Shown here piece by piece: positions 42,845 through 60,122 of a stretch of DNA of 64,000 nt; positions within the stretch are counted from its first letter, which is position 1; the number at the start of each line of letters is the position of its first letter. Origin of the DNA: Pseudomonadota bacterium. GTDB lineage: Bacteria; Bdellovibrionota; UBA1018; CAIMNF01. The DNA lies in the NCBI GenBank assembly GCA_027491115.1, contig JAIXWV010000016.1:74657-138656 (forward strand). Direction: 5' to 3'. The position numbers were made by a program, and so were the translations under genes. The notes below the pieces were generated by a model, which was not told the origin of the DNA, did not search any database, and saw only the letters and a program-made list of their open reading frames with translations.

Positions 42845-44227
42845 TTACAGTTTTGACTCGCTTTTGTCCAAGATTCCGTAGCGATGAAGCTTGTTATACA
42901 GGGTTTTGATGGTGATCCCGAGGCTCTGGGCCGCCCGGGTCTTGTTCCCTTCGTGGTGCTGAAGGCAACGCAGGATGTGGATCCGCTCGAGCTCTTCGAG
43001 GGCCATCTCGACCGGAGGCGGGCCGGACAGGGTGAGGGTCCCGCCCGAAATCGCCTGATCACGGATCGAGGCCGGAAGGTCCTTGGCTTCGATCTTGGAG
43101 CCGCCACTCAGGATCTGGAGACGTTCGGTCAGGTTTTGCAGCTCACGGATGTTGCCCGGCCAGCGGTAAGCCTGCATCAGGGCCAGGGCTTCAGGGTTCA
43201 GTCGGCTGTGGAGGCCGGGAGCGAAGTGCTCCATCAGGTCCTTGAGGTCTTCCATCCGGTCCCGGAGGGCGGGCGACTGGACCGTGATGGTGTTCAGTCT
43301 GTAAAAGAGGTCTTCCCGGAAGCGGCCGGCCTGGATTTCGTTCTCCAGGTCACGGTTGGTCGCGGAAACGATCCGCACATCCACCCGGATGGACTCTTTC
43401 CCACCGACGCGGAAGATTTCGCCCTCTTGGAGGAAGCGAAGGAGCTTGGACTGGAGGGAGAGGGGCAGTTCCCCGATCTCGTCGAGAAACAGCGTTCCAC
43501 CGTGAGCCACTTCGGCCAGGCCCTTTTTGGTGTTCACGGCACCGGTGAAGGAGCCCTTCTCGTGACCGAAAAGCTCCGACTCGAGCAAGGATTCGGTGAT
43601 GGCACCGCAGTTGATCGCCACGAAGGGCTGGTCTTTGCGAGGGCTCAGCTCGTGAATCCGGCGGGCGAGGAGTTCCTTGCCAGTTCCGCTTTCGCCGAGG
43701 ATCAGGACGCTAGCGGAAGTGGGAGCCACGCGTTCCACCAGGTGAAGCACTTCTTTGAGCTTTTTGCCAGAGCCGATGATGCTCGAGTGGGAGGCGGCCC
43801 TGTTCTTGGCGAGATTTTTCACGGGAGTTCCCAGGGTGAGGCCCGGGCGGACCGGGGCCAGCATCCGACCCAATTCGCTTGCGGCGAGCTCGACTAAAAT
43901 CTGCTCGCCTGCGGACCACTTGCCCTGTTCATGCGAAGCGAACAGGACGGCATTCATCTGTTGTTGATGGAGGCAGGGCACGATGAACACCTGATGAAGA
44001 GGTTCTACAATGCTCTGGCGCAGGCGGACGGCCTGGTCGAGGGTTCGAGGATCAAAGGCGGGGAACGACGATGCCGAGGTGAAAAGCTGTTGGGGGAGTC
44101 CACCCTTTGCATCGAAGCGGGCGATCGCGAACCGTGCGAAAGGAAGCTCGCGATTCAGGAATTCAAGACTGCCGTCGAATTCCTGCTGGAGCTTCTGGAT
44201 GGTGTGAAGAGCTGAGGGGCTTCCCAT
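42845..44227 (-). CDS. Sigma54-dependent transcriptional activator with N-terminal GAF-like region
   Basis: A 460-residue activator. An N-terminal sensory region of about 150 residues is GAF-like (weak). The AAA+ domain has Walker A GESGTGKE, the sigma54-contact loop GSFTGA (Ala to Ser in the usual GAFTGA), Walker [13 protein letters not shown] and the arginine-finger region [10 protein letters not shown] Fis-type HTH follows at the C-terminus ([20 protein letters not shown]). The start at ATG 44227 is the natural N-terminus; the frame upstream is nonconserved. Its promoter region is shared with the membrane protein gene at 44280. No sigma54 promoter was identified in this window. Confidence 0.9.
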
Positions 44228-44279
44228 AAGGTGCTCGGATTCTATACGCTCCGTGTAAAAAATGCAATAAAGAAATGGA

Positions 44280-46397
44280 GTGAAAAGATCGATTTTTTTG
44301 TTCTCCTTGGCTAAACTGAAACAGTGGCATCTCAATATCAGGAAAAGCACCTGGGTCATCCTTGCGGCGTATTCGGCCTCGGTGGCCTGGGCGTGGCACC
44401 AGCTCTTTCATTTTTTCACCTGGTATCACTTTGATCATGGGGGACATGCCTTTGGTGGGACCCAGCTCCTCGAGGTGGGCTACCACGGGTACCAGGATCG
44501 CGTCTTCATGGGGTCGATCCAGAATCTCTTCTACCCCCCTCTTGAGGACTTGGTTCTCGCCGGTCTGCAGCTGATAAGTGGATGGACGGGCTTCGAACTT
44601 TATCCCTTCTATGTTTCTGCCATCCTGCTCCTGTTTCTGGCATCCCAATGTTCGTGGGTATTGACCCTACAAAAGGGATGGACCCGGATGCTCTTTGCCG
44701 GAGGACTTCTCTGGTTGTTCCACATGCAAAAATTCGATTCTTCCAGCTTGCAGGGGTGGTCGATTTTTGATGCCGTGGTGATCGGACTCTCGAGTCAGTT
44801 CCTCTCGGGCATCGGATTTTTCCAACTCATGAAGGCTGCTTTCCAAAAGGAAAAGCTCTCCCGGGTACAGGTGCTGTTTTGGACCGGATTCTGCATCCTC
44901 TCTCACCTGATCACCGGGATTCTGGCCGGTCTGGTCTTTCTCCTCGTTGCTATCACCCATCGGTGGAGGCGCTCAGATGTCTTGCGGGGGATGGGGGTGC
45001 TATTCGCTGCGACCGCGTTCTTCACGGTTCCTTTTCTGGCATACAGAAATTGGATGATCTCGTCGACGATCTACTTTCAGCAGTCGATCTGGGTCCTGGT
45101 GCTCATGGGAGTTTCTGCAAGCCTGGCGCTCTGGCAACGCTGGAGAGGCGCACTCTGGCTCCTCATGGCCACCACTCTCTATGCACCGCTGATCCTGTTT
45201 CCTCATTTGGAGCAGCATTTCGGCTGGTCGATTTCCTTTCACTTCTATCGACTGGCGATGCCCGCTTGGATTTTCTTCTGGGCAGGATTGCTGTTGTCAG
45301 CTGACACGACACTGCCCCGTCGCCTGTTCCGAAGATGTCTCGAAGGTTGTATCGTAGCGGCACTCATCACCCTGGGAGCTCAGATGCGCCCCTGGTGGGA
45401 TGTTCCGACCGGGACTTTGCAACTCAAACCTCCGCTCGAGGTGCAGGTTTATCCTGAGGGTTGGAGACGTGGAACCGGGGGAAGGACCCTGGTGCTCGGC
45501 CGGACCCGGGCCTGTGATTTCGGACTCGATTACATTTTGCTCGGAGCTTTTCCCGGCTTCTCATCGATCCGGGGGCTGCACTGGGAAGGATCCACCGGAA
45601 ACGCGGTGATCAGCTCTTATCTGGTCACGCTGTTCTCGCCACCTGTGGTTCTGGATTATTTCTACCTGGAACTCAGTCAATGCGATGAGTTTGAACGTAT
45701 TCTGAAGGACGCTGTCGATGTGTTGGATATCGGCTACATTACCTACGGTGAGGTAGACCTAGGATGGATTCCTGAACCGAAGCGTTCCTGCTGGAAGCGG
45801 GTGCTCCAGACTGGATTGAAGGGAGCCTCTTTGACGCCCGGTGGAAGCTTCCGGTTCCAAGGGGAAGATCACAAAATTCTCATCGTCGATCCGAGCCTCC
45901 ATGCTCGCGCGGTCTTCTTCAATCCGCACGAATCTTATTTCGCAAATCCTTCTGGGAAGTATCCCTACTTCGGTGGGCCAGTTCTGGGCCGAATGAAGGC
46001 CGCCGTAGACGGCCTTTCTACCCGCTCACCCGGAATTTTTCCTGAGAATCGTGATCAATTCGAAAAAGAGTTGCTTCACGAATCCCAAACAACAGTCCCT
46101 CCCGGGATTCCGCAGTACACGCAGGATCCAGAGGGGCGATACCACTTTGATTTACCGTCTTCCGGTGCTTGGGTTCATCTCAGGGTTCACCCGCAGCCCG
46201 GAATGCGGATCCGGGACGAGGCGGGTCGAGACCTGCCCCTGTACAAAGCTTATCCAGGATTGGTGTTCCGCGGGGCCGGCAAAGTGACGGTCGAATACCG
46301 GAGGCCTTGGGTGATGGGGTTTTCTTACTGCATCTCGGCCGCCTTTTGGCTTGTGCTTTTGTTCCGTCGACTGCGGAAATCAATGGTTTTCGTCTAA
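44280..46397 (+). CDS. Large polytopic membrane protein with C-terminal extracytoplasmic region
   Basis: A 705-residue protein. The first 370 residues hold about nine to ten hydrophobic segments with short loops, including [15 protein letters not shown]. Residues 370-680 are a soluble domain, and a final TM ([15 protein letters not shown]) and basic tail end it. The layout recalls membrane GT-C-type or PTPS-like integral proteins, but no catalytic motif was certain. The start is GTG at 44280. It directly precedes the secreted cysteine-rich gene cluster and may belong to its export or anchoring, which is inference. Confidence 0.7.
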
Positions 46398-46453: not shown

Positions 46454-48895
46454 ATGTTCAAAATGGGGTGGTTGCGTTTCGGGGCGCTTTTATTCATTCT
46501 TTGCAACGCTGAATCGGCGTGGTCAGTTTGTAACCCGCCATCCGGTGGAACAGCCCGGCTGAACTCGTTCGGGGATTGTGAAATCACCTGTCCCGCGCAA
46601 TACAATCTCTCAGGTGGAGCCTGCGTTTACTCAGGAGCGGGCTCGTATACGTGTGGAGTGAGAACCCTACCCTTCCAAGGACTTCCCGGGGGTACGGGTT
46701 GTCAAATATCCAATCCGTGCGGTCCGAACCGTGTGATGAATTCGGGAATGAATGACTGCTCCTGTGCCACGGGGTATGTTTTGAATGGATCGAGCACGGC
46801 TTGTGTCCTTCCCGGCGGAAGTGGAACCGGAACCGGAGGGTCATCCACATCCAGTCCCTCTTCATGTAATGTGGGCGATCGGTGCACCAATGGAAGCTTG
46901 ACCGGATCTTGGGATGGATCTGCGTGTTGCACGTCTGGAAGTGCACCGGTTTGCCTGGCGCCCCCCATCACTTGTTCTCCCCCGCCTCCTCCTCCGACGT
47001 GTAATATTGGAGATCGGTGCACCAATGGAAGCTTGACCGGCTCTTGGGATGGCTCTGCATGCTGTACCTCCGGGAGTGCCCCGGTTTGTTTGGCCCCTCC
47101 CATCACGTGTTCTCCTCCTCCCCCTCCTGCTCCGGCGTGTAATATCGGAGATCGCTGTACCAATGGAAGTCTGAACGGGAATTGGGATGGTACTGCTTGT
47201 TGCACCACCGGACGTTTTCCGGTTTGCCTGGCTCCTCCCATTTCATGCTCGGCGCCCTTAGCAACTCCCACTCCGACACCGGCCCCCACCTGTACCAACG
47301 GATGGAGTTGCGGACCTTGCCCGAGTCGTCATACCTGCACCTACGATACCCGTGGCAATTGTTGTATCGACGTCACCGCACAAGTGTGTTTGGCCAGTTG
47401 GTCAACTTGCTCGGCTCCCCCTGCTCCGACGGCAACTCCGAGTTGTACTATCGGAGACCGGTGTACCGGTGCGGGTGGAACCTCGGGTGTGTGGTTTGAG
47501 GGCGCGGGGAATCCCTGTTGTGCAGCCGGCGGCGGATGCTGTCAGGTGGATCGAAATGGAAATCCCGTTTCCTGCTTGCTTGGGCCGTTCTCTTGTACTG
47601 GAGGACCTGCAGCGTCCCCGAGTCCGACCGTTACCCCGACTCCAATTCCCGGACAGTCGGTATGTACGGTGAACGAAACCTGCACTCAACTCGGAACCCC
47701 TTCCATACAAGGCACTTGGACAGAGCTCTGCAGTCAGGCGACCAGTCCACCGACTTGCTTTTCCTGTTGTGTGAATGGCGGGCGCTGTGTGAACGGTCCT
47801 TTTGCAGAGTGTTGGGCTCCGCCAACTCCGTCGCCGGCCCCGCCTTCTTCGGCGAATTGTTCAGTAGGCGCGGCTTGTCAGGACCAGTCTGGTTTGATTG
47901 GCTTGATGAGTGCTTCTATGGGATGTTGTGCGAGTGGGAAGTGCTTCGATCCGCCCTACACTTGTCCTCCGTTGATCGGACTCATCGCAACTCCGACCCC
48001 TCCGGCAAATGATCCCTTTGCAGATCCGATCAATACTACTACGTGCCGGAAAGGGTTCAGTAGATCAGGTGGGGGTCCGTGCCGTCCCATGCCGGATTAT
48101 CACTCCTGTTCAACACCTGCGAATTCTCAGATCATGCCATCGGTTCCAGGATCTGAAGACATCCGGAACTTTCTGAATCCGAAATTGAAGTGTTGCCTGA
48201 ACGAAATTGACGGCGCTTTCACCAGTGGGAGTCACCTGAAATTCGACTGTATCGAAAACGCAGGTGTTGCTCCCAATTTCGATTTGCTCTGGGCAGGAAA
48301 GGACCAGGATTTGAACGGCTCAGCGCCTTACGCCACGCTTCTGGCTGGTTTCGGCGGAAAGCCGATCTCCGGATTCTATGCTCTCGAAAACGGATCACTC
48401 CGCCGTTGCAGTGAATTCAGCGAATTCGCCGCCCTCGGTTCTATCCAGGGGTTCCGTGTGGATCCCGTCCAAAAAGTGGTTCAACAGGACTCGGTCGGAG
48501 CCGGACAGATGGTTTCTGTCGGATCTGCCTTACCGGTGCCGACGGGTCCATCCTTCGTGCACATCCGAACTGAGGTCCGGAAAAAAGGTAAGACTATTCC
48601 GACCACGATCGATGAAGTTCGCCGATGCCCGGTCTTGCTTCGTGCAGCAACTGTAGTTTCTTGTAAGAAGCCAGCCGCCGGGCAAGTGCCACCGAAGACC
48701 TATTCGGACCCATCAGCGCCAGCGGACAAGACTCGCTGTACGTCAGGAAGTGTGGTGCAGATTCACGTCCAACTCAGGCAGCTCCACGAGATCACAGGTC
48801 AGCCTACAATGAAAACCGTTGATACCGTGGTGGACAGCTCCCAGCTCTCTACGATTTCAGTTGAAGAAATTCTAAAGTCGCGTCGGACCCCCTGA
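46454..48895 (+). CDS. Secreted cysteine-rich repeat protein, first of three paralogues
   Basis: An 813-residue protein with a signal peptide (MFKMGWLRFGALLFILCNAE). After an EGF/TIL-like N-terminal part (CATGYVLNG) it carries seven tandem modules separated by Pro/Thr-rich linkers. The core is C-N-[VI]-GDRC-TNGSL-x-G-x-W, a CC pair and two more cysteines. The C-terminal region (about 550-813) is shared with the two following genes: LNPKLKCCLNE, FDCIEN, LLWAG, ISGFYAL, RRCSEFSEF, VRRCPVLLRAATVVSC and IHVQLRQLHEITGQPTMKT. Function unknown; a disulfide-stabilised surface or structural role is inferred. The ATG at 46454 follows GAGAGGG; a GTG at 46436 is an alternative. Confidence 0.78.
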   Translation: MFKMGWLRFGALLFILCNAESAWSVCNPPSGGTARLNSFGDCEITCPAQYNLSGGACVYSGAGSYTCGVRTLPFQGLPGGTGCQISNPCGPNRVMNSGMNDCSCATGYVLNGSSTACVLPGGSGTGTGGSSTSSPSSCNVGDRCTNGSLTGSWDGSACCTSGSAPVCLAPPITCSPPPPPPTCNIGDRCTNGSLTGSWDGSACCTSGSAPVCLAPPITCSPPPPPAPACNIGDRCTNGSLNGNWDGTACCTTGRFPVCLAPPISCSAPLATPTPTPAPTCTNGWSCGPCPSRHTCTYDTRGNCCIDVTAQVCLASWSTCSAPPAPTATPSCTIGDRCTGAGGTSGVWFEGAGNPCCAAGGGCCQVDRNGNPVSCLLGPFSCTGGPAASPSPTVTPTPIPGQSVCTVNETCTQLGTPSIQGTWTELCSQATSPPTCFSCCVNGGRCVNGPFAECWAPPTPSPAPPSSANCSVGAACQDQSGLIGLMSASMGCCASGKCFDPPYTCPPLIGLIATPTPPANDPFADPINTTTCRKGFSRSGGGPCRPMPDYHSCSTPANSQIMPSVPGSEDIRNFLNPKLKCCLNEIDGAFTSGSHLKFDCIENAGVAPNFDLLWAGKDQDLNGSAPYATLLAGFGGKPISGFYALENGSLRRCSEFSEFAALGSIQGFRVDPVQKVVQQDSVGAGQMVSVGSALPVPTGPSFVHIRTEVRKKGKTIPTTIDEVRRCPVLLRAATVVSCKKPAAGQVPPKTYSDPSAPADKTRCTSGSVVQIHVQLRQLHEITGQPTMKTVDTVVDSSQLSTISVEEILKSRRTP
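46865..48005 (+). repeat. Tandem coding repeats: seven cysteine modules
   Basis: Units start at 46865, 47000 and 47138, spaced 135 and 138 bases, with near-identical DNA. Four more divergent units follow (from about 47291, 47441, 47660 and 47850). Each module has about six cysteines, including a CC pair, and ends in a Pro/Thr linker. Near-identity of the first three implies recent duplication. Confidence 0.8.
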
Positions 48896-48898
48896 CGG

Positions 48899-48931
48899 AA
48901 CCGTCTTTTCCCGACGGTTTTGATGTATACT
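48899..48931 (+). promoter_or_regulatory. Weak terminator and possible -10 before the second paralogue
   Basis: AACCGTC/GACGGTT (48899-48905 and 48913-48919) forms a 7-bp stem with four T. TATACT (48926-48931) after it resembles a -10 element, 18 bases before the ATG at 48949. The second gene may thus have its own promoter. Confidence 0.4.
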
Positions 48932-48948
48932 GAAACCTAGGGGAAACC

Positions 48949-50838
48949 ATGGGTTCTAGGTGGGTGTTCATTGCGTCTGTTTATTTCGGACTCGGGCTTT
49001 CGAGTCTGACTGAGACTGCTTGGGCACAAGGATACGTCCCTGGCCAGTTGGGTGCCCCCCGCCCCAATCGAGTCAACCGGGATGATCAATTCGGACGGGT
49101 GAGTGGGACTTCAGGAACAGTCGAGTACGAATTCGGTTACCTCAAGGGGGGAGCAATGGACGACCCGCACAATGAGTGGCCGGTGTGTGGTCCGGGTGTG
49201 GCTACGACCAGTCCTCGAATCCCCGTTGGAGAAGATGGCACGGTGTCTTCTGCGGCCACTACCACCCGTCCCAATGCAGTCGACAATTTATCAAACACCG
49301 ATGGGTATTGGTATTTGTGGACTTCTTCAGGAAGTCCATCCTACGCCTATCGGAGAAGCAACGGTCAGGTCAACCGCTGCGCCTGCCTGTCTGACCAGAT
49401 CACCGACCCGAGCCCGCTCCCGACGTACACGGCTTCGGCTACTCGAACACCACCGGTTGAATATTCGATTGCGCCACAAAGGTTTTTACCTTCGACATAC
49501 GAAATTATCTCCGAGGCGACGTCGAACTTTTCTATTTCGAGACAATATGGGCCAGTTGCAGTATCGAACCTCGCAGTGGGAGACCCCAGGGCTTTTTCGC
49601 GATTTCATCCGGCATCTCCGACAGACAGTTATTCGGTTTGCAGTTGTCCGAACATCAATGAAAAAGCCATTCGGATCGGTATCAGCGATCAACAGTTCGG
49701 CTCTCGTTGCGAGCCGATGATCGTCGATGACCCTCCCGGGGTCCGGGTACTCGCACCTTATGGGGAATCTACGGAGTTCGAGAGGCATTATCATTCTCCC
49801 CCCAATAGTTCTCACATCCTGACTTCATGGAAGGAGCAGAGCACCGCCGACCCGCTTTCCTCCACCGTGAATTTACCAACGGAATCAAACTTGGCGATGG
49901 TCCAGCAATACCGCCGAAGAATCTGGACCTGCTCCGCACCGTATGAGCCGAACTTGGGGACGGGGAGATGCCAATACAGTCGACAAAAACACGCCTGCGG
50001 AGGGGGTTCGAGTGGGATTGCCTTGTCTCCCTATGGAGAGGTTTCGGACACGGCATCGGAGGTCAATTTCAAGAACCTCGCAAACAAAAAGTTGGCGTGT
50101 TGCCTGAATTCACATGCAGTGAGCAGCGCCGGAGTCACCCAACAGAATTTTTTGAAGTACGATTGCGTTCAAACCCAGGAGGTGGATCCCTCCGGTGCGC
50201 GGCTCGACTTCAATGCGCTCTGGGCCGGTGGGGATGATTCCTTGGATGGGGGCCAAATGAATGCGTTGGCGCTGGTGAGTGCGGTCGGCCAACCGATTAC
50301 CGGGTTTTACTCGCTTCGTGGAACGCGGTGCGGGAAGTTCAGCGAGTTCGGTGGAGAGCTTCGTCCGAAGCGGGTTCAGCCCTTTTTGATCGCGACCCAG
50401 CAAGCCAATGTCATGAGTGGGGGGGGGATCGAGAATCTTGCTGCGGCCTATCCCCTGCCGTCGGGAAATGCCTACCTGGACCTGAAGGCCGGGATTGGCA
50501 AGGATGTTCCCGATACCATCCAGGAAATGAACGAGTGCCCCATCCTGGTCCGGGCCGCCCTTGTGGTGAGTTGCCCTTCATCGAATGCAGGGACCCCCCC
50601 GGATTTAAGGTATCAGGATTCTGGCCTGATTCGTTGTCCTATGGCGGCATCGGTGGCAGTGCACCTCAGGATCGAGCAACTTTATCACATCGCAGGCCAG
50701 AGTCCGCTCAAGACCTTTGACACGCGGGCAATGAAAGACCAAATCGCTTCGCTAGATGTCGCCGAAATCATTGGAAGTAGGTTCGGTGAAACTTGTTTGC
50801 CAGGAACCCGTAGGGTGGGGGACGTATGCACGTATTGA
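48949..50838 (+). CDS. Secreted cysteine-rich protein, second of three paralogues
   Basis: A 629-residue protein with a signal peptide (cleavage near AWA-Q, residue 27). Its middle part (PVCGPG..., CACLSDQI, SVCSCPNINEKAIRI, RRIWTCSAPYEPNLGTGRC) and C-terminal part (NKKLACCLNS, KYDCVQT, LWAGGDD, ITGFYSLRG, CGKFSEFGG, MNECPILVRAALVVSCPS) align with residues about 870-1421 of the third gene and, for the C-terminal part, with the first. No repeats. It is the minimal version of the family. It starts with GGGGA before the ATG and overlaps the next gene by 13 bases. Function unknown. Confidence 0.8.
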   Translation: MGSRWVFIASVYFGLGLSSLTETAWAQGYVPGQLGAPRPNRVNRDDQFGRVSGTSGTVEYEFGYLKGGAMDDPHNEWPVCGPGVATTSPRIPVGEDGTVSSAATTTRPNAVDNLSNTDGYWYLWTSSGSPSYAYRRSNGQVNRCACLSDQITDPSPLPTYTASATRTPPVEYSIAPQRFLPSTYEIISEATSNFSISRQYGPVAVSNLAVGDPRAFSRFHPASPTDSYSVCSCPNINEKAIRIGISDQQFGSRCEPMIVDDPPGVRVLAPYGESTEFERHYHSPPNSSHILTSWKEQSTADPLSSTVNLPTESNLAMVQQYRRRIWTCSAPYEPNLGTGRCQYSRQKHACGGGSSGIALSPYGEVSDTASEVNFKNLANKKLACCLNSHAVSSAGVTQQNFLKYDCVQTQEVDPSGARLDFNALWAGGDDSLDGGQMNALALVSAVGQPITGFYSLRGTRCGKFSEFGGELRPKRVQPFLIATQQANVMSGGGIENLAAAYPLPSGNAYLDLKAGIGKDVPDTIQEMNECPILVRAALVVSCPSSNAGTPPDLRYQDSGLIRCPMAASVAVHLRIEQLYHIAGQSPLKTFDTRAMKDQIASLDVAEIIGSRFGETCLPGTRRVGDVCTY

Positions 50839-53800
50839 GAAATTCGTGGAAAGTGTTTTTGATGGTCGCGCTTTTTCTCTTGGATCCATCCACCTCGCAG
50901 GCCAGGCGGGTGCGGGGGAACAAACCCACGCCCACTCCCGTTCCGACAGTTGCCCCAGTTCTACCGGTCGTGCTTCCGGATGTTCCCCTCGCTTTCGACA
51001 CTTGCAGTTACTACGACGGCCAGGTTGAGGATTTTGATTTTCGTGATGAGCCGAATGAAAGTGTTGGAGTATGTCAGGCGGCTTGGGATCGTGCGGATCC
51101 TATGGGCGACGGGGTCTTGGAAGCGTTGGATCTGATTGCGGCAAGTGGTCGATATCCTGTTCAGTTGGATTGGGATGGCAAAACACCTTCAGGCGTGATG
51201 ATCACACCCGCCGGAGCAAAGGAGTGCCAATGTGTGGCCCGGCCTTTACCGAAGGAATTCATGACCGGTTTTCCTGAGGTGTTTTGGGGTGTTTTTGGGG
51301 GGACCAAGAATTGTGGCGTCAGAAGAGGTGCGTGGCAATTCGAGTCGTGTAAGTCTTCGGTTGTGATCGATCCGGGGACAGGGGGCTCCTGTCCGACGTT
51401 CAATCTGCTCAAGCAAGCGAGTGATGGCCCCGGAGGAGTCCGTACCCAGGTCTTCGGTCTCACTGGCTACCCAGATCCGAGTGACGTTTTTGGTTTGACG
51501 ATTTACGGGCATCACGTCACTTCAACCGGATTCAAAGAAGCTTCAAGTCATGCTAAATGGCTCACGGCACAGGTGGGCCAAACGACGCCTGAAGAATGGA
51601 ACTCGGCGGGAAAAGCACCCTTCGGTGCGAACGGATTTCCACCCAGGATCGATCCGGTGTTCAACGCAACCGATTCAGCCCATCTTTACCTCTACCTCGA
51701 TGATGCAAATCAAGCAGTACCTTGGTTCAGGTCTTCTGTCAGGCCTGAGTGCAGCGGGGGCGGGTGTCCCACCTTTGCGAATGTCTTGAACCTTCTGGAG
51801 GGGGATCGAAGACTGCAAGTGTTCAACCTGAACGGGATGTTCTCTTTGGGTGATGCCATTGGATTCAAAATTTACGGACACGACGTTTATGTGAAGTACG
51901 AATCTGGAATGGATACGATGAAGCTCGCCGAAATGCTCGCCGAGCGGATTCGTTCCATTACCCCAGATGAATGGGCCGCAGCCAATGGGGGTCAAAAGTC
52001 GATCATTGAACGAATCATGAAGTATCCAATCGAAATCGGTGTGGGTACTGACGGAACCCAGACAGTGATCAAGATGCTTCTGGATCCGGCTCAATTGGCT
52101 ATGCCGATTCTGATCACTCCGAAGGGTTCGTGTGCTCTGGGCGCTACTTTCAAATTCGACCCGAACGGAGGCTCACTCGGTGTCATCGATCAGGGGGGCT
52201 CTGGGTCGATGACTGTGGCTGTATTCAATGTGAGTGGACGCCCGATCAAGGGCTGTTCCATTTTCCCTAGTGATCCGGACAACTTCCAAATCAAAGCCGG
52301 ATCGGAGTGTGATGGTTTTGATGTGGGGGGAGCCTGCAAATTCGAGTTGATCGGATCTCCTAGTTACAGTTCATATGGAGGGGTTTCGGGAAATGTTTAC
52401 ATTGCCTGTGGAGGTGATCTGGCGATGAGCGAAGTGGCTGGTTTCCGTTACGAGATTGGTGCCATGTTGTCTGCACCCGATCTTTATCTGAAACCGCTCA
52501 CGCTTGATTTCGGGTCGATCAAGGTTGGTTCCGCCTCGGCCTCTCAGAGTGTCACGATCAACAACCTCGGCGAACAGGAGGCGCAGTCGTGCAAAGTGTA
52601 TTTAACCAACTCTGAAGATTTTCTGATCAAGAATCCAGAAGCTTGCCTCAATGTACCTGGCAAAGGAGCTTGCACCATGGATGTGGTGGCATTTCCAAAA
52701 AGCGACGGTGCCAAACGGACCACTTTGGTGGCGGAGTGCTTGAACGCTCGCGGTCAGTCGACTCCTGACGGGATCATGGTGAATTTCTCTGCGGCGACAC
52801 CCGAGCCGACACCGGTGACCACGCCCGCGCCCATGCCATTGTTGTCATTTACCTCACCGAGCAGCGCGGATTTTGGAACGGTAGTCGTGGGGAGCACCGG
52901 AGGTCCCTTGTCGTTGACCGTGGTGAACTCGGGAACCCTCGATGCTTCATTGTGTAAGTTGGCGTTCACCGGACCGGATGCGACCCAGTTCCAGTTCGAC
53001 TCGTCCTGCGGCACTGTTCCGGCCAGTAACTGTCAGGCGATGTGTCAGCAGAAGTGCCCCGCCGGCGATGTCTGCGGCTATGACGTCAAGTTGAATTGTT
53101 GTACTGACTACTCGAACCCCGCTGTTGCGATGGATTGTCCACTTTGTAAGCCAGGGGCATGTACCTTCAATTTTTCGGGAAGGCCGACCGTTGCAGGAGC
53201 CATGAAAGCCCAGGTCTCGCTTACTTGCGGAAATGGCGGATCTGCATCCAGTTCAGCAAATGGAATCACCATGAATGCGACTCAACCAGCGGGTACTCCC
53301 ACCCCGACACCGACCCCCAGTTGTTCTATGGAGGGTGCGGTGAAAATGTCTACGGATTGCGTATGTCCTGCAGGTTATGAGGTCGGAACCAATTCTTCCG
53401 GCGCGCAGGCTTGTCGTCCAGTGGTGCCCTCGAGTGAGTTCGCCAAGGCCGGAGATTCCTTCTCGGATGGCTATCCGGTTTGTGGAACCGGTCGGATGCC
53501 TCTAACTTCTAACTTTTTTTTGAGTGATCTCTCTACTCAATCGAGGCCCCTCTCGACTCATCAGTTCACGAAGCTCGGGAGTCTCTATCGTTTTGCTAAG
53601 GACAATTCACCGGCGGATCAAAACCTCGTCTCGCCACAGTATCTCTACTCGGCAGCGGGGCTGAAGCGTTGCGTGTGTTCGGCATCAGATATTGCATATG
53701 ACCCGAGCATCGCTACGGACACCACCGGGAAGCTTGTTTCCGGCTCGGGACGTTTTGTGAGTGATTTGTATGAAGTGGTCGCATCCACCTCAACTTCAAA

Positions 53801-55091
53801 TCCGAACTCGGACACCTACGCAACGGTTCCGATTGCCCACGATGGGGCAGGTAACGGTTATTCCGGATCGTTGTATTATCCTGGACATGGTGGCTCAGGT
53901 GCGGCCAAGGTGAGTTGCGGTTGTCCGAATCTGAATGAGAAAGTGACGGCGATATCAGCCTTGGCCGGTTCCGGTTATTCGTGTTCACCGGCACTCGATA
54001 CTTCGGATCCGAACACCCAGAAATACATGGTACTCGCAAATTTTGATCCAGCTGTACACGATTCATCAGCTACGACGACGCACTTGCTGGATCGCACCTC
54101 CGCAACTGCAAAGGTCACTCGTGTTCAGTTACCGACCGCGACGGGTGGATATCGGACTTACAATCGGAGGATCTGGACCTGCGCTCCACCGACTTATTTG
54201 GACGTCTCCAGCAGGACCTGCAAGATCAGGGAAAACGTTCACATGTGTGATAACGGTGATTCCTCCGGAGTGCCCTCCCCGGTGTCGCAAAATCTGAGTG
54301 GGTCCACGGCTAGAGATCAGTTTAACAATGCGGCCAATCCTAAACTGGCATGCTGTCTGAATTCTTTTGACCGGAAGAATCCATCTAACCCCTTAAAATA
54401 CGACTGTATCCAGAACGCCGATCAATCGCCTGCTGATTTTGAAAGTCTCTGGATGTCGACCGATCCGGCTGACACCGGGGGACAGGGAAATGCCATGGTC
54501 CTTACAGATGGATCCGGACGGCCGGTAACGGGTTTTTTTACCCTCACAGGTGCCCGTTGTGGTGAATACAGTGAGTTTGCGGGTCCGATCCGTGAGGCCA
54601 CTGTGAATCCAGCTCAGATCGCTACCCAGCAAAATCTGAGTGGGAATAAGTTCGATCAGAACTTCATCCAGTTCAGCGGTAACTCGATCGGGCCACCCCC
54701 TCGGGCCCTGAGTTGGTTCTCCTCGAAAAAGACTGTCCCGGATCAGGCATCTAAGCCGGCTCAAGCTGCGCGTGAATGTCCAATCCTTGCTCGGGCCGCC
54801 CTCGTGGTGACTTGCGGTTCGGATGATGTAGCCGGGCAGCTTCCCCAACGGTTTACCGATTCAAGAGGCCATGTCCACTGTCTGGCTGCCAAGTCGATCA
54901 AGGTTCATCTTCGGATTCAGCAGGTCTACAAGATCACGGGGGTTCCTCCGATCAAGACTTTTGACTCGATCATGGACCTAGAAGAGGCCAAGCGTACGAG
55001 TATCAACATGGAGGGAATGATCCGTGCCCGAGCCGGAGCGTTCTGCCCGGCAGGAACGAGTTACGCGGAGGGGAACTGCTTTTTCAAATGA
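50826..55091 (+). CDS. Giant secreted modular cysteine-rich protein, third of three paralogues
   Basis: A 1421-residue protein with a signal peptide (about residues 1-26, ending SQA-R) and a Pro/Thr linker. Two similar domains (about residues 190-280 and 315-400) each contain CPTF and a FGLTIYGHHV/GFKIYGHDV strand. Three choice-of-anchor-like immunoglobulin modules follow, for example LTLDFGSIKVGSASASQSV and ADFGTVVVGSTGGPLSL, then a cysteine-rich block (CQAMCQQKCPAGDVCGYD). The last 550 residues are the module shared with its neighbour. Translation is coupled by a 13-base overlap with the preceding gene and a 4-base overlap with the next. Likely exported and extracellular; role unknown. Confidence 0.8.
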   Translation: MHVLRNSWKVFLMVALFLLDPSTSQARRVRGNKPTPTPVPTVAPVLPVVLPDVPLAFDTCSYYDGQVEDFDFRDEPNESVGVCQAAWDRADPMGDGVLEALDLIAASGRYPVQLDWDGKTPSGVMITPAGAKECQCVARPLPKEFMTGFPEVFWGVFGGTKNCGVRRGAWQFESCKSSVVIDPGTGGSCPTFNLLKQASDGPGGVRTQVFGLTGYPDPSDVFGLTIYGHHVTSTGFKEASSHAKWLTAQVGQTTPEEWNSAGKAPFGANGFPPRIDPVFNATDSAHLYLYLDDANQAVPWFRSSVRPECSGGGCPTFANVLNLLEGDRRLQVFNLNGMFSLGDAIGFKIYGHDVYVKYESGMDTMKLAEMLAERIRSITPDEWAAANGGQKSIIERIMKYPIEIGVGTDGTQTVIKMLLDPAQLAMPILITPKGSCALGATFKFDPNGGSLGVIDQGGSGSMTVAVFNVSGRPIKGCSIFPSDPDNFQIKAGSECDGFDVGGACKFELIGSPSYSSYGGVSGNVYIACGGDLAMSEVAGFRYEIGAMLSAPDLYLKPLTLDFGSIKVGSASASQSVTINNLGEQEAQSCKVYLTNSEDFLIKNPEACLNVPGKGACTMDVVAFPKSDGAKRTTLVAECLNARGQSTPDGIMVNFSAATPEPTPVTTPAPMPLLSFTSPSSADFGTVVVGSTGGPLSLTVVNSGTLDASLCKLAFTGPDATQFQFDSSCGTVPASNCQAMCQQKCPAGDVCGYDVKLNCCTDYSNPAVAMDCPLCKPGACTFNFSGRPTVAGAMKAQVSLTCGNGGSASSSANGITMNATQPAGTPTPTPTPSCSMEGAVKMSTDCVCPAGYEVGTNSSGAQACRPVVPSSEFAKAGDSFSDGYPVCGTGRMPLTSNFFLSDLSTQSRPLSTHQFTKLGSLYRFAKDNSPADQNLVSPQYLYSAAGLKRCVCSASDIAYDPSIATDTTGKLVSGSGRFVSDLYEVVASTSTSNPNSDTYATVPIAHDGAGNGYSGSLYYPGHGGSGAAKVSCGCPNLNEKVTAISALAGSGYSCSPALDTSDPNTQKYMVLANFDPAVHDSSATTTHLLDRTSATAKVTRVQLPTATGGYRTYNRRIWTCAPPTYLDVSSRTCKIRENVHMCDNGDSSGVPSPVSQNLSGSTARDQFNNAANPKLACCLNSFDRKNPSNPLKYDCIQNADQSPADFESLWMSTDPADTGGQGNAMVLTDGSGRPVTGFFTLTGARCGEYSEFAGPIREATVNPAQIATQQNLSGNKFDQNFIQFSGNSIGPPPRALSWFSSKKTVPDQASKPAQAARECPILARAALVVTCGSDDVAGQLPQRFTDSRGHVHCLAAKSIKVHLRIQQVYKITGVPPIKTFDSIMDLEEAKRTSINMEGMIRARAGAFCPAGTSYAEGNCFFK

Positions 55092-55489
55092 GGGTTCGCT
55101 CCACTTTCGGATGCAGTTGGATCGCCGGTGCTGCACTCCTGGGATATGGCTTGCTTGCTTACTTGATTCACCGTTTCGGTGTCGAGGCAGGTTTAGATGC
55201 TTTGGCCCGATTCGGACCGCATTGTCCTGTGTTCTCGTTTACAGGGTGGAAGTGCGGATTTTGTGGAATGTCCCGTGCTTTTGTCTACTTGTTCGACGGG
55301 AGGATGGATTCCGCAGTTAGTCTCAATCTCCTCTCTGTGCCCGTGTTCATTGCAGTCCCTGGAGTGTTGATGTGGTGGTCTCTCCGGCGACCGGTATCCT
55401 TCGGGTTGCATCCCATCATTCCCCTGGTCATGTTGATGCTGCTCACGATCTACAGTTTGGTGAGGAATCTGGTTCCCGGGGTCCCTTAA
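55088..55489 (+). CDS. DUF2752 membrane protein
   Basis: A 133-residue protein with about three hydrophobic segments. The DUF2752 signature is clear: GPHCPVFSFTGWKCGFCGMSRAF, with the TG-x2-C-x2-CG-x-(S/T)R pattern, then a hydrophobic run containing SLNLLSVPVF. Other families have the same cysteine motif in small membrane proteins of unknown role. Its ATG overlaps the stop of the giant protein (ATGA), so it is coupled to it. It overlaps the convergent peptidase gene by 4 bases. A link to disulfide chemistry of the neighbours is conjecture. Confidence 0.85.
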   Translation: MRVRSTFGCSWIAGAALLGYGLLAYLIHRFGVEAGLDALARFGPHCPVFSFTGWKCGFCGMSRAFVYLFDGRMDSAVSLNLLSVPVFIAVPGVLMWWSLRRPVSFGLHPIIPLVMLMLLTIYSLVRNLVPGVP

Positions 55490-58446
55490 AAGAGTGAATC
55501 CGCTTCAATCGTGAAAAACACACGGGATTCGCCGAGTGCCTCAGTGCGGGTCCCGTTTTGGAATTCGACGTTGAATCGGAGCGGTGCGCGGAGAAGCAAC
55601 TGGGTGTCGGTTCCTAGGCCCAGACCCCAGGCGGGCATCAGGATGCTGCTATATCGACGTCCTGATACAAGCAGATTTTCCGCGAAGTTGGCATCCGCAA
55701 AGAGGAATCCATGGGTCTGTTTGATGAACGCGGGGAGTGTGCTTCTGCCCCGGAAGCTCCTGATGAGAGGAAGGTGGTACTCGAGTCCGACGGATCCTGC
55801 ATGCCTTACATTTGCGCTCAGTGCCGGATACCCCCTGAAAGAAAGCTGAGACAAGGTCGTGCCTGTTCCACGATCGAACACACTATCGATGTTCTTTCCC
55901 GCCACTTTGCTCGTGGTGAGAGCCGTGTCGGACGCACGGGTGGTCCCCATCCATCGAGCGCGGGTCCGAATGACGTGATTGGCACCAGGAGACTCATGGT
56001 GGGTCCAGCTGAAGAGATAGCGTCCGAGTGCATCCTGGGGCGTGTTGAAGCGGCTTTCCACCTGGAGGCGGAGTTCGTTTCCGATTTCATTTGTGAATCC
56101 GAGACGGGTTTTCCGGGCATCACTGAAAACCAGTGCCCCTCCGATTCCAGGTACGATTGCATTCCGATATTGAAAGTCTGGAACATCAATCGGTGCACCT
56201 GTCGAGGTGTCCTCGACACGATAGCGGGAGCCGAAAATAAATAGCGAGGGACGAAGAGTGCTCCGTACCCAGAAGATGGGGTAGGAAAGGGTCAGGACTG
56301 TGTCGAGATGGTTCCGGTAATCGGTAGGGGTGATGGTGAGGGTATTTCTAGATACGGAAAAATCGATCACCGGTCGCATACCCGAATAGGTGTACGTGAA
56401 GGTCCCGTCTACGGTCCGAGGCAGGAGGTTGTATGCGCCGGTCAGGGTGTATTGATGTTTACCTGTGGCATCGAAGCCAAGCAAGAAGCCTGAAAGCGAG
56501 GCTCCTGAGACTTCGTCGTAGCTGAATGAAGCAAGCGGTGCCCACTGGCGGGGAGCCAGGGTTTCCCAAGGGGAATACGGGCGAAGCGTTTGGGACTCTG
56601 AAGCAATTTGAGGTGAGGGCCCCAGCGCCTCAGGGATCGGGTCGGGTGCGTCCGGGGTGGCCGGGGAGCTCGGTTTTGCAGGCAGGGTCGGGAGGGTCCA
56701 CTTTACAAGCTGGTATCCGTCGGACGTCAGAAGATTCGAATGCAGTTCTCCATTTCTCGAAAACGAAGGAAAGATCGTCCCCCCAATGGAATGGGTGAGT
56801 TGAATCGATCGGTTTTTTTCAAGAAAATGGATGTTCTCGATCCCACTCCGATTTGAAATAAAATGGATTCTTCCTCCATTTGCGGAAGGAAAGCGATTCA
56901 TTGCCCCGTCTGCAAGAAGGACGCGGGGGGGGCCGCCTTTGACCGAGACAGCCTTCAGATCGGATTGTGAGCTGCCGATGGATTGTTCCGAATAGAGGAT
57001 CTCAGCGGGGCCGTTGAACGCGGGTCCGCTCATAATCGAAAAATCCTGGGGTCGTACGAGTGTCTTGATGTTCTTCAGCCTGGGTCGCCCCTGCTCTACC
57101 ACCCAGTCCGCAATATCGAGACTCTGGGTTCCCTTGCGTGTCCTCAAAAAAGAGAGCGTTCTTCCATCGGGAGAAATCGAAGGTTCTTTGGCCCGTAGTC
57201 CGGAAGAGATCTCGTGGATTTGCCCGCTGGAGAGGTCATAGGCGAATAATTCTGAATAAAGTTGGTAAGACTTCATCCGGTACAGGGCGCTGAAAATCAA
57301 AAAACGCGAGTCGGGAGTGAATGTCATCCCGGCGCCGAGGAGTTTTTCCTCAAGTCGGTATTTCTTTCCGGTTGTCAGACTCTTCAAGATCAGTCTTGCC
57401 CGGTCTTCGAGCGAACTCTCGGTATAGGCCAGCCAATTTCCATCCGGAGAGAAGGTCCCTCCGATGATGGAGTAGTCACTCGTCGCGATGGTTTGATAGG
57501 GTGTTTCTCCCGCCTTCCTAACGTCTTGGATCTGCCGGGTGAAGCGGACTTTGCTTTCACTCACAAACCGTTTCCAATAGTCCGTCCAGGATCGCCCCTT
57601 CACTGATAGCAAGTGAGAGTTGATGAAATACGGGATCCTGGACGAGGAATGAATGGAAAGCTCTCCCATTTGTTCTTCGGATTTCTGCTGGTTTTGTTTT
57701 CCAGCGTCTTTTGCGAACTGGTTCCAAAGGTGGTACCCGAACAGGTAGGGGATCTCACCCCCTGGGAAGTAAGGTGTTTCGCCGTTGACCCGATCGAGAG
57801 TGATGGCGCGGGGATGAGAGGAGTCGAGTCTTCCTTCATTGACCAAGGAACGGAGAATTCCCTCGTAATAGGGAGAGCGTCCTCGTCCCAGTCTGGAGGT
57901 ACGGGTTTCAAAGTACGTTGCCAGCCCCTCGAGCATCCACATTGGCCAGAGGCCATTTGGCCGGATCACGTCGCCGAACGTGATCCGGAGAAACTCCATG
58001 AAGCCATGGGTTGGATCAATGTTCAAAAAGTGAGTGTACTCATGAAAGACCAGGAGTTTGATCCAGTCATCGGTATAGGAGGTCGAGAACCAGGCGTCCG
58101 GAGGGGTGGCAATGAGCACAATGCCCACCCGGAGACTGGGAAGGGCGAATCCGTTGGCGGCATCCTCGTTGTCGGCGATGAGGACGGTCGTCTTGTCCCT
58201 CGGCTGCCACTTCAAGATCGGTTGAAGCACTCGGTGAGCATGCTCGAAAGCTGCTGCGGCCTTTCGAGCGAATGATTCGTATCCTTCTTCGAAAACCAAG
58301 CGGAAATGGGGGGTGTCCAGTTGCCGGTACCGGGTGTCGGGTGAAAGTCCGGCGAGCTCGAGAAAATTCTGTGCACGGGCAACCGGTGTATAGCCCGACA
58401 TTCCAAAGCCGAATGCGCAAAGGAACCCGAGCCATGCCATCCTCAT
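55486..58446 (-). CDS. Outer-membrane gluzincin-like peptidase with beta-propeller and beta-barrel
   Basis: A 986-residue protein with a signal peptide (cleavage near ARA-Q, residue 26). Residues 30-300 form a zinc-peptidase domain of the MA type: HEYTH at 135-139 with the glutamate in WMLEGLATYFE at 173. About 370-640 reads as TolB/WD40-like propeller blades (FSPDGNWLAYTE, FTPDSRFLIFS, ISPDGRTLSFLR). The last 300 residues have amphipathic strands and end in FFTIEADSLF, a barrel signature. It is thus probably anchored in the outer membrane. It overlaps ygfZ-like by 4 bases. Substrate unknown. Confidence 0.85.
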   Translation of the reverse strand: MRMAWLGFLCAFGFGMSGYTPVARAQNFLELAGLSPDTRYRQLDTPHFRLVFEEGYESFARKAAAAFEHAHRVLQPILKWQPRDKTTVLIADNEDAANGFALPSLRVGIVLIATPPDAWFSTSYTDDWIKLLVFHEYTHFLNIDPTHGFMEFLRITFGDVIRPNGLWPMWMLEGLATYFETRTSRLGRGRSPYYEGILRSLVNEGRLDSSHPRAITLDRVNGETPYFPGGEIPYLFGYHLWNQFAKDAGKQNQQKSEEQMGELSIHSSSRIPYFINSHLLSVKGRSWTDYWKRFVSESKVRFTRQIQDVRKAGETPYQTIATSDYSIIGGTFSPDGNWLAYTESSLEDRARLILKSLTTGKKYRLEEKLLGAGMTFTPDSRFLIFSALYRMKSYQLYSELFAYDLSSGQIHEISSGLRAKEPSISPDGRTLSFLRTRKGTQSLDIADWVVEQGRPRLKNIKTLVRPQDFSIMSGPAFNGPAEILYSEQSIGSSQSDLKAVSVKGGPPRVLLADGAMNRFPSANGGRIHFISNRSGIENIHFLEKNRSIQLTHSIGGTIFPSFSRNGELHSNLLTSDGYQLVKWTLPTLPAKPSSPATPDAPDPIPEALGPSPQIASESQTLRPYSPWETLAPRQWAPLASFSYDEVSGASLSGFLLGFDATGKHQYTLTGAYNLLPRTVDGTFTYTYSGMRPVIDFSVSRNTLTITPTDYRNHLDTVLTLSYPIFWVRSTLRPSLFIFGSRYRVEDTSTGAPIDVPDFQYRNAIVPGIGGALVFSDARKTRLGFTNEIGNELRLQVESRFNTPQDALGRYLFSWTHHESPGANHVIRTRARWMGTTRASDTALTTSKVAGKNIDSVFDRGTGTTLSQLSFRGYPALSANVRHAGSVGLEYHLPLIRSFRGRSTLPAFIKQTHGFLFADANFAENLLVSGRRYSSILMPAWGLGLGTDTQLLLRAPLRFNVEFQNGTRTEALGESRVFFTIEADSLF

Positions 58447-59096
58447 GGAGCAATGCTCTCCACTACGATGGTCACTTTGTCTGCATGGAGCCGCGTGCCG
58501 ATCTTCAGGTAGCGACGCCCGATCACCGCGAGTCCAAGATTTCCGCACACACTTGTCAGGACCCCGGAGTCTGATCCCGCCGCATCTGTCAGTCCTTGCG
58601 GCGGTGGAGGGAGTGGTGACTCGGCCCTGACTTGGCACAAGCGTCGGGCGGGAGAGCCGAGAGCAATGATTTTTTCGATCACTTCTTGCCCCGGATAGCA
58701 GCCTTTCTGATCGGCAATGGCATGTCCGAGATTCACCTCAAGTGGGTTCACATCGCCATCGAGTGAAAACTCTTTTCCAGCACAAGGTCTGAGCGCAAGT
58801 ATCCGTGACTCCTCGGACTCGGGTTCTTCCGAATCCGCTGAAGCGGTCGGAGTTAGGGTGTACTGCTCTCCGAAGGTGAAGCTGTCGAGTATCCCGGTGA
58901 AGTCCCCGGAAAAGGTGATGTCAGCCAGGTCCGGAGTCAGGCGCTCGATTTCGAACCAGCAGCGGATCTTCCCTGAGGGAGTGAGGAATAGTCCCTCCGC
59001 TTTTTCCTTCAATTTCAACCGTTTGATATCGGCCGAACTGATCCGATGGAGGAGGTCGAGCCCCTCGTGACCCTGAAGTAAAACCCTTTGTTTCAT
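58443..59096 (-). CDS. YgfZ/GcvT-domain (folate-binding, iron-sulfur assembly) protein
   Basis: A 217-residue protein with the YgfZ fingerprint KGCYPGQEVIEKI (E. coli KGCYTGQE). Also typical are VLLQGHEGLDLLHRISSADI near the N-terminus and VNPLEVNLGHAI before the fingerprint. YgfZ helps assemble or repair certain [4Fe-4S] enzymes using tetrahydrofolate, notably radical-SAM MiaB. RimO, a related enzyme, is encoded 3 kb away. The ATG 59096 start is chosen; the frame extends upstream without conservation. Stop and next start overlap as ATGA with the peptidase. Confidence 0.88.
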   Translation of the reverse strand: MKQRVLLQGHEGLDLLHRISSADIKRLKLKEKAEGLFLTPSGKIRCWFEIERLTPDLADITFSGDFTGILDSFTFGEQYTLTPTASADSEEPESEESRILALRPCAGKEFSLDGDVNPLEVNLGHAIADQKGCYPGQEVIEKIIALGSPARRLCQVRAESPLPPPPQGLTDAAGSDSGVLTSVCGNLGLAVIGRRYLKIGTRLHADKVTIVVESIAP

Positions 59097-59126
59097 GGTG
59101 CGATTAGAGTACATTACTTTGCACTG

Positions 59127-60122
59127 ATGAAATACCCCAAATCCCAATATTCACGGTCCATCCAGGATCAGGACCGGGTGTCGAGCCCGTTTCTGGTCAA
59201 GTACAGCGCTGTCGCCACAGGCAAGACCGGCAAGGCTTACATGAATGTCATCCTCACCGACAAGAGCGGTGACATTGAGGCGAGGATTTTCGACCAGGTG
59301 CCGAAATTCAATGCCCAAGCGGTGAAGGACGCCTATGTCCAAGTGGAGGGTCACGCTCAGAGTTTCAACGGGCGGATCCAGATTCATATCAAGAACCTGA
59401 CTGTTTTGAGGGAAGACGAGGTGGAGTCTGAAGAATACCTCCCTGCGTCTTTCTTGAACCCCGAGAAAATCTATGCGGAAGCGAAAGCGATCATCGCCTC
59501 CATGCAGGACCCTTATTATCGCGCCTTGCTCGAGTCGATTTTTGTGGATGACGCTGACATCATCGAGCGATTCAAAAGAGCACCTGCTGCCAAGAGCTTT
59601 CACCACGCATATCCGGTCGGTTTGCTCGAGCACGTTGTCTCGATTGCCAAGACGCTCGACTTTCTTGCGAATCATTACGCTCCCTATGTGGATCGCGATC
59701 TCCTGTTGGTCGGGGGGTTTTTGCACGATCTCGCCAAAATCTGGGAGCTTCAGTACGAAAAAACAACCGATTACACCACCGAGGGGCGGCTGATTGGGCA
59801 TTTGGTCATGGGTGCCGAGCTGATCGACCGGAAAATCCGGAGTCTGGATTCCCAGCCGGGCAGGTTGCCGGCCCCGTTTCCTGTCGAGAAGGCTCTCCTG
59901 GCCAAGCACGTTGTGCTCGCTCATCACGGGAAGATGGAGTTCGGATCCCCCAAAGAACCCGCGTGCCTCGAGGCGGTGATCGTTCACATGATCGACGACC
60001 TCGATTCCAAGGTGAACGCGATCCGGGTGTTCATTGAGCAAGATCCGAATCCCGGCATGTGGACTCTTCTGAATCGCAACTACGAGCGGTTCTTTTACAA
60101 ACCGGAGTGGGCCCGGAAGTGA
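59127..60122 (+). CDS. OB-fold/HD-domain 3'-5' exoribonuclease, YhaM-like
   Basis: A 331-residue protein. The N-terminal OB-fold (KTGKAYMNVILTDKSGDIEARIFD) is followed by an HD domain with HHAYPVGLLEHV, then LVGGFLHDLAKIWEL, matching YhaM-type 3'-5' exoribonucleases that use Mn. The start at ATG 59127 begins MKYPKSQYSRS. The next gene overlaps its stop by 4 bases (GTGA), and ygfZ-like diverges from it across 30 bases. Confidence 0.88.
   Translation: MKYPKSQYSRSIQDQDRVSSPFLVKYSAVATGKTGKAYMNVILTDKSGDIEARIFDQVPKFNAQAVKDAYVQVEGHAQSFNGRIQIHIKNLTVLREDEVESEEYLPASFLNPEKIYAEAKAIIASMQDPYYRALLESIFVDDADIIERFKRAPAAKSFHHAYPVGLLEHVVSIAKTLDFLANHYAPYVDRDLLLVGGFLHDLAKIWELQYEKTTDYTTEGRLIGHLVMGAELIDRKIRSLDSQPGRLPAPFPVEKALLAKHVVLAHHGKMEFGSPKEPACLEAVIVHMIDDLDSKVNAIRVFIEQDPNPGMWTLLNRNYERFFYKPEWARK

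Follow-up and report, generated by a model that had tools for sequence, protein, structure and literature searches.

In Geobacter, the pilin stick and the globular head are two proteins, PilA-N and PilA-C (GSU1496/GSU1497; PMC10191384, PMC5174107), and the use of the Geobacter filament is disputed (PMC9207759). In modular minor pilins, such as PilB and PilC of Streptococcus sanguinis, non-pilus domains on the pilin make the filament adhesive (PMC10191384), and in the Kil (Tad) pilus of Myxococcus xanthus, a predator, alternative tips are joined to one filament via the tiny helical pilins KilK and KilO (PMC12075869). Our literature search on "split pilin" found nothing.

Here we analysed a stretch of 64,000 nucleotides (hereafter, the window) from a bacterium of the Bdellovibrionota, in which three adjacent genes, A, B and C, code for large secreted proteins with a common C-terminal module. 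We favour, with some reserve, the interpretation that these proteins are detached, variable globular heads of split modular type IV pilins, probably minor pilins located at the tip. PilA-N/PilA-C of Geobacter is the precedent for a separate stick and head, but there one head serves each stick, the genes are adjacent and the product is the major pilin, whereas in the window clade there are several large multidomain heads whose genes are not linked to that of the stick; the likeness proposed is one of architecture. In addition, fused, adjacent and unlinked states coexist here within one order. The nearest functional analogues are the modular pilins and the Kil tips. However, PilB and PilC of S. 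sanguinis are single chains, while the graft proposed here is carried by a head that forms a protein of its own, and the Kil tips, which belong to a Flp/Tad pilus, are themselves minor pilins and have leader peptides, while the sticks described below have the GFTLxE motif of type IVa/T2SS prepilins.

Genes A, B and C and the family of their module

The preliminary description of this DNA, made from the sequence alone, reported three adjacent exported paralogues of 813, 629 and 1421 residues that join different N-terminal parts to a common core, and this was borne out by our comparisons: the three open reading frames were found, each with a Sec-type signal peptide by inspection, and the products of A, B and C contain 69, 18 and 52 Cys residues, respectively (Table 1). 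The module occupies the C-terminal ~280–300 residues of each protein and was recovered by pairwise alignment over ~250–270 residues (A–B, E = 4e-42; A–C, E = 5e-31). The motifs listed for it are present, although the start had to be corrected to N-[PK]-KL-x-CCLN and the middle to C-x-x-[FY]-SEF. The N-terminal parts indeed differ, but B, which was thought to have no shared part there, has a mid domain of ~250 residues that precedes the module in C as well. The choice-of-anchor-like domain suggested for C was confirmed (NF012200, PF15780), and only in C did a choice-of-anchor D/ASH domain score above the curated cut-off. Residues 165–313 of C (51318–51764) also matched part of a large secreted protein of G035 (L049:13605-16685; E = 2e-6), whose gene adjoins a distant module gene and a prepilin; the matching region is an accessory domain common to both proteins.

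Table 1. Features of the A–B–C locus; positions are those of the window.
Feature	Position	Strand	Basis
Gene A, secreted protein, 813 aa, 69 Cys; variable Cys-unit N-terminal part and module	46454..48895	+	ORF, pairwise comparison
135-bp tandem repeat, 2.8 copies, coding for near-identical Cys units of A	46865..47241	+	
Module of A (proposed pilin head domain)	48044..48892	+	alignment; profile link to fused pilins
Hairpin then TTTT between A and B (candidate, terminator-like)	48896..48922	+	sequence
TATACT, possible -10 of B	48926..48931	+	same sequence 5' of B in G007
Gene B, secreted protein, 629 aa; mid domain and module	48949..50838	+	ORF, pairwise comparison
Mid domain of B, common to C	49153..49950	+	B 69-629 aligned with C 875-1420, E=1e-68
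Module of B (proposed pilin head domain)	49951..50835	+	alignment, structure model
Gene C, secreted protein, 1421 aa; repeated N-terminal unit, choice-of-anchor D/ASH domains, mid domain, module	50826..55091	+	
Choice-of-anchor D/ASH domain of C	52473..52727	+	NF012200 E=5e-21; PF15780 E=3e-10
Mid domain of C, common to B	53448..54179	+	pairwise comparison
Module of C (proposed pilin head domain)	54180..55085	+	alignment
DUF2752 membrane protein, resident gene of the locus, 4-nt overlap with C	55088..55489	+	

The overlaps of B with C (13 nt) and of C with the DUF2752 gene (4 nt) are real. Of the co-expression claimed for the locus, the sequence would allow that of B, C and DUF2752 at most, but A seems to stand apart, as the candidate hairpin with its TTTT and the TATACT lie between A and B.

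The statement that the core is without an annotated domain also held: the module matched no family in Pfam, NCBIfam, PHROGs or PDB sequences, and the PHROG and domain matches in C fall outside it. In a 19-member alignment of the module the invariant columns were N, C, DC, W, P-x-x-x-RAA, C, C, Q and D. The family extends beyond this locus to other, unlinked ones; this genome has six copies, the three beyond A, B and C being on contigs C33, C3 and C8, and five congeners have about 17. Clear members are present in 5 of 11 congeners, and 6 of 11 are without them at the BLAST level, while at the profile level G002, G006, G008, G009 and G011, congeners without window-type genes, have reduced modules of their own. 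The orthologous proteins in G007 (A, B and C) and in G001 (C) are much more similar to their counterparts here than any of the paralogues is to another, and the triplication therefore predates these species.

Prepilins fused to or beside the module in relatives

The link to type IV prepilins was missed by the preliminary description and is visible only in relatives. Distant module members in other genera (G012, G035), detected with the window sequence, adjoin very short genes whose products show a type IV prepilin motif. We searched 369 genomes of the phylum with a profile built from the module core and free of pilin sequence, and its matches were confined to the same order of Bdellovibrionota, none being found in the searched genomes outside that order. 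The new matches in G004:C243, G051:C107, G019:C7 (tandem), G025:C24 and, weakly, G038 are single chains with a prepilin helix, ~60 residues and then the module, and at another new match, in G014, a short prepilin gene overlaps the start of the module gene. Outside the window clade, nine module loci detected without pilin sequence could be judged (G012:C6, G035:C5, G035:C27, G014, G051, G019, G025, G004:C243 and G038), and in each of the nine the module is either fused to a prepilin or has one next to it. The module loci of G006 and G008, which are at contig ends, were left out of the nine, as were those of G002, G009, G011 and G036, which were found through prepilins. In these last four genomes short prepilins lie directly 5' of Cys-containing secreted proteins, and profile comparison indicated that the latter carry a reduced or diverged module. 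Stick and head genes are adjacent in G012, G035, G014, G002, G009, G011 and G036.

The same motif scan gave no prepilin for the window, nor for the surroundings of the other module genes of its clade. The prepilin N-terminal motif was also absent from A, B and C, and because they have Sec-type signal peptides instead, we describe them as detached heads and not as pilins.

The prepilin assignment of the fused proteins differs in strength. G051 exceeded the cut-offs of both PF07963 (24.0 bits; cut-off 21.2) and TIGR02532 (20.4 bits; cut-off 16.3), G004 exceeded that of TIGR02532 (16.7 bits) and fell below that of PF07963 (16.2 bits), and G019, G025 and G038 were assigned by motif only. When compared with the window-clade profile, the fused proteins of G051, G004 and G025 matched at 94%, 89% and 88% probability, respectively, versus at most 5% for seven secreted or Cys-rich controls; those of G019 and G038 had no direct match to this profile and are linked only through intermediate members.

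Several of these loci have features of their own. G019:C7 (L205:4982-10168) encodes three tandem fused prepilin-module proteins. Their C-terminal collagen IV C4 (NC1) domain (PF01413), which scored above the curated cut-off, is one of animal basement membranes, here on bacterial proteins that resemble pilins. The C-terminal part of the G025:C24 protein (L206:5267-6856) resembles a phage tail-fibre-type repeat region by eye and has no family match. In G002 and G011 (L152:2321-7261, L153:3-2303), a large lipoprotein-like gene with a similar N-terminus lies, in divergent orientation, 5' of the short prepilin-module pair, and its product is a possible further partner. At the murA locus, which is the site of the C3 module copy in this genome, G003:C232 (L162:7357-9388) has two prepilin-like genes beside a 469-residue Cys-rich secreted protein; we considered this protein as a family member and rejected it, as it did not match the module profile.

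Short sticks and the proposed split pilin

This genome contains T2SS and type IV pilus genes (two MshEN ATPases, PilA-like and GspG-K-like genes) and six N_methyl-type prepilins, namely the T2SS set, one PilA-like protein and an orphan of 81 residues encoded outside the window (G000:C16:21780-22022). The orphan has a mature part of about 69 residues, scored 26.2 bits with PF07963 and 44.9 bits with an HMM of the fused N-termini, and is a short prepilin without a globular head, homologous to the N-terminus of the fused full-length proteins. The fused N-termini and the short prepilins aligned nearly gap-free over 61 residues, with gaps in two only, and the standalone sticks stop shortly after a conserved Ser. 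With the HMM of fused N-termini, 14 of 16 short prepilins scored 31–52 bits versus 12–23 bits for six ordinary pilins; the second short prepilin of this genome (17 bits) and G012a (19 bits) scored no better than the ordinary pilins. The gene of this second short prepilin-like protein lies ~12 kb 3' of the window end on the same contig, beside a DusB-like gene (G000:C39:150194-150421), and has orthologues in G001, G007 and G010.

Close orthologues of the orphan stick (E ≤ 4e-17) were found in those six congeners, and only those, that have window-type module genes, with weaker matches elsewhere, a co-occurrence that comes from twelve related genomes and is not independent of phylogeny. The stick is 100% identical in amino-acid sequence in three species despite a nucleotide difference of ~10%, whereas the heads are 56–80% identical.

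These comparisons give good support to homology between the module and the domain after the prepilin helix of the single-chain, prepilin-like proteins found in this order. They also showed that short prepilins ending just before the module domain exist as separate genes. No prepilin adjoins any window-clade head, which counts against our interpretation, and the pairing of stick and head in trans on a pilus is therefore inferred. In the structure models, the module of B had good local confidence and the remainder was poor (mean pLDDT 63), and a compact fused protein was modelled as a long helix, short helices and three strands (mean pLDDT 73). The alignments behind the models were shallow (19 and 22 sequences), and in Foldseek searches against the PDB the fused model gave no match with an E value below 7 and the module model was unmatched.

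In the mechanism that we propose, each head would be exported by Sec, become disulphide-bonded in the periplasm and bind non-covalently to the C-terminal half of a short stick. The stick would be built into a type IV filament, either a type IV pilus or a T2SS pseudopilus, and the head would thereby be carried to the surface, probably at the tip. The parts that differ between heads, such as the Cys units and the ASH/choice-of-anchor domains, may be the adhesive or receptor-binding parts, and the almost invariant stick could serve several interchangeable heads. A combinatorial pilus, in which one nearly invariant stick (possibly with a second) serves in trans at least six separately encoded, fast-diverging multidomain heads, is a more tentative proposal, which we hold to be possible.

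Alternative readings and the conserved neighbourhood

The module may derive from a pilin head and yet have left the pilus in the window clade, where A, B and C would be secreted adhesins or matrix proteins, either free or bound to the envelope, with the short prepilins serving other proteins. The window-clade heads lie at several unlinked loci with no adjacent prepilin and have gained large N-terminal parts, but the retention of the almost invariant stick in exactly those congeners that have window-type heads, together with that of the invariant core columns of the module, argues against this interpretation, and we consider it rather unlikely.

Alternatively, the heads might be non-pilin tip proteins or secretion partners that dock on a complete minor pilin, like PilY1 or the T2SS/TCP secreted effectors. 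The combination of a Sec signal peptide and prepilin neighbours is also seen with the non-pilin tip proteins PilC/PilY1 and with TcpF (PMC10191384). However, the fused relatives have the helix and then the module on a single chain, and the standalone sticks lack any head, which makes docking on a complete pilin improbable.

The gene order kept across the genus (42845–44359 and 55088–60122 in the window) is an NtrC-like gene, zero to three module genes, the DUF2752 gene, the gene at 55486, a YgfZ-like gene and an HD gene. The gap between the NtrC-like and DUF2752 genes holds module genes, LemA-like genes (in G002, by eye) or little else. We rejected sigma-54 control by the adjacent NtrC-like gene, as the regulator is also there without family genes; a convincing -24/-12 site was not found 5' of the family genes. 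A literature search on DUF2752 found nothing. The proposal of the preliminary description, a locus-specific exported system coupled to DUF2752 and to the membrane protein at 44280, fits the gene order and overlaps in the window but is very improbable and largely refuted by synteny: DUF2752 is a resident gene at the same place in G002, G003, G008, G009 and G011, which have no module genes there, the membrane protein was found at this locus in G007 and the present genome only, and half of the six module genes that this genome has lie elsewhere.

The split pilin remains the interpretation that we favour. The only split stick and head pilins that we found in the literature are those of Geobacter; if our interpretation is true, pilins have been split elsewhere too, and a head can become detached, increase in number and acquire additional domains. 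A combinatorial pilus, if it exists, would be one filament with several interchangeable surface-binding tips. A family of large unannotated proteins gains a testable role, with a new head domain defined, and our results suggest a way for relatives of predatory bacteria to vary what their pili touch.
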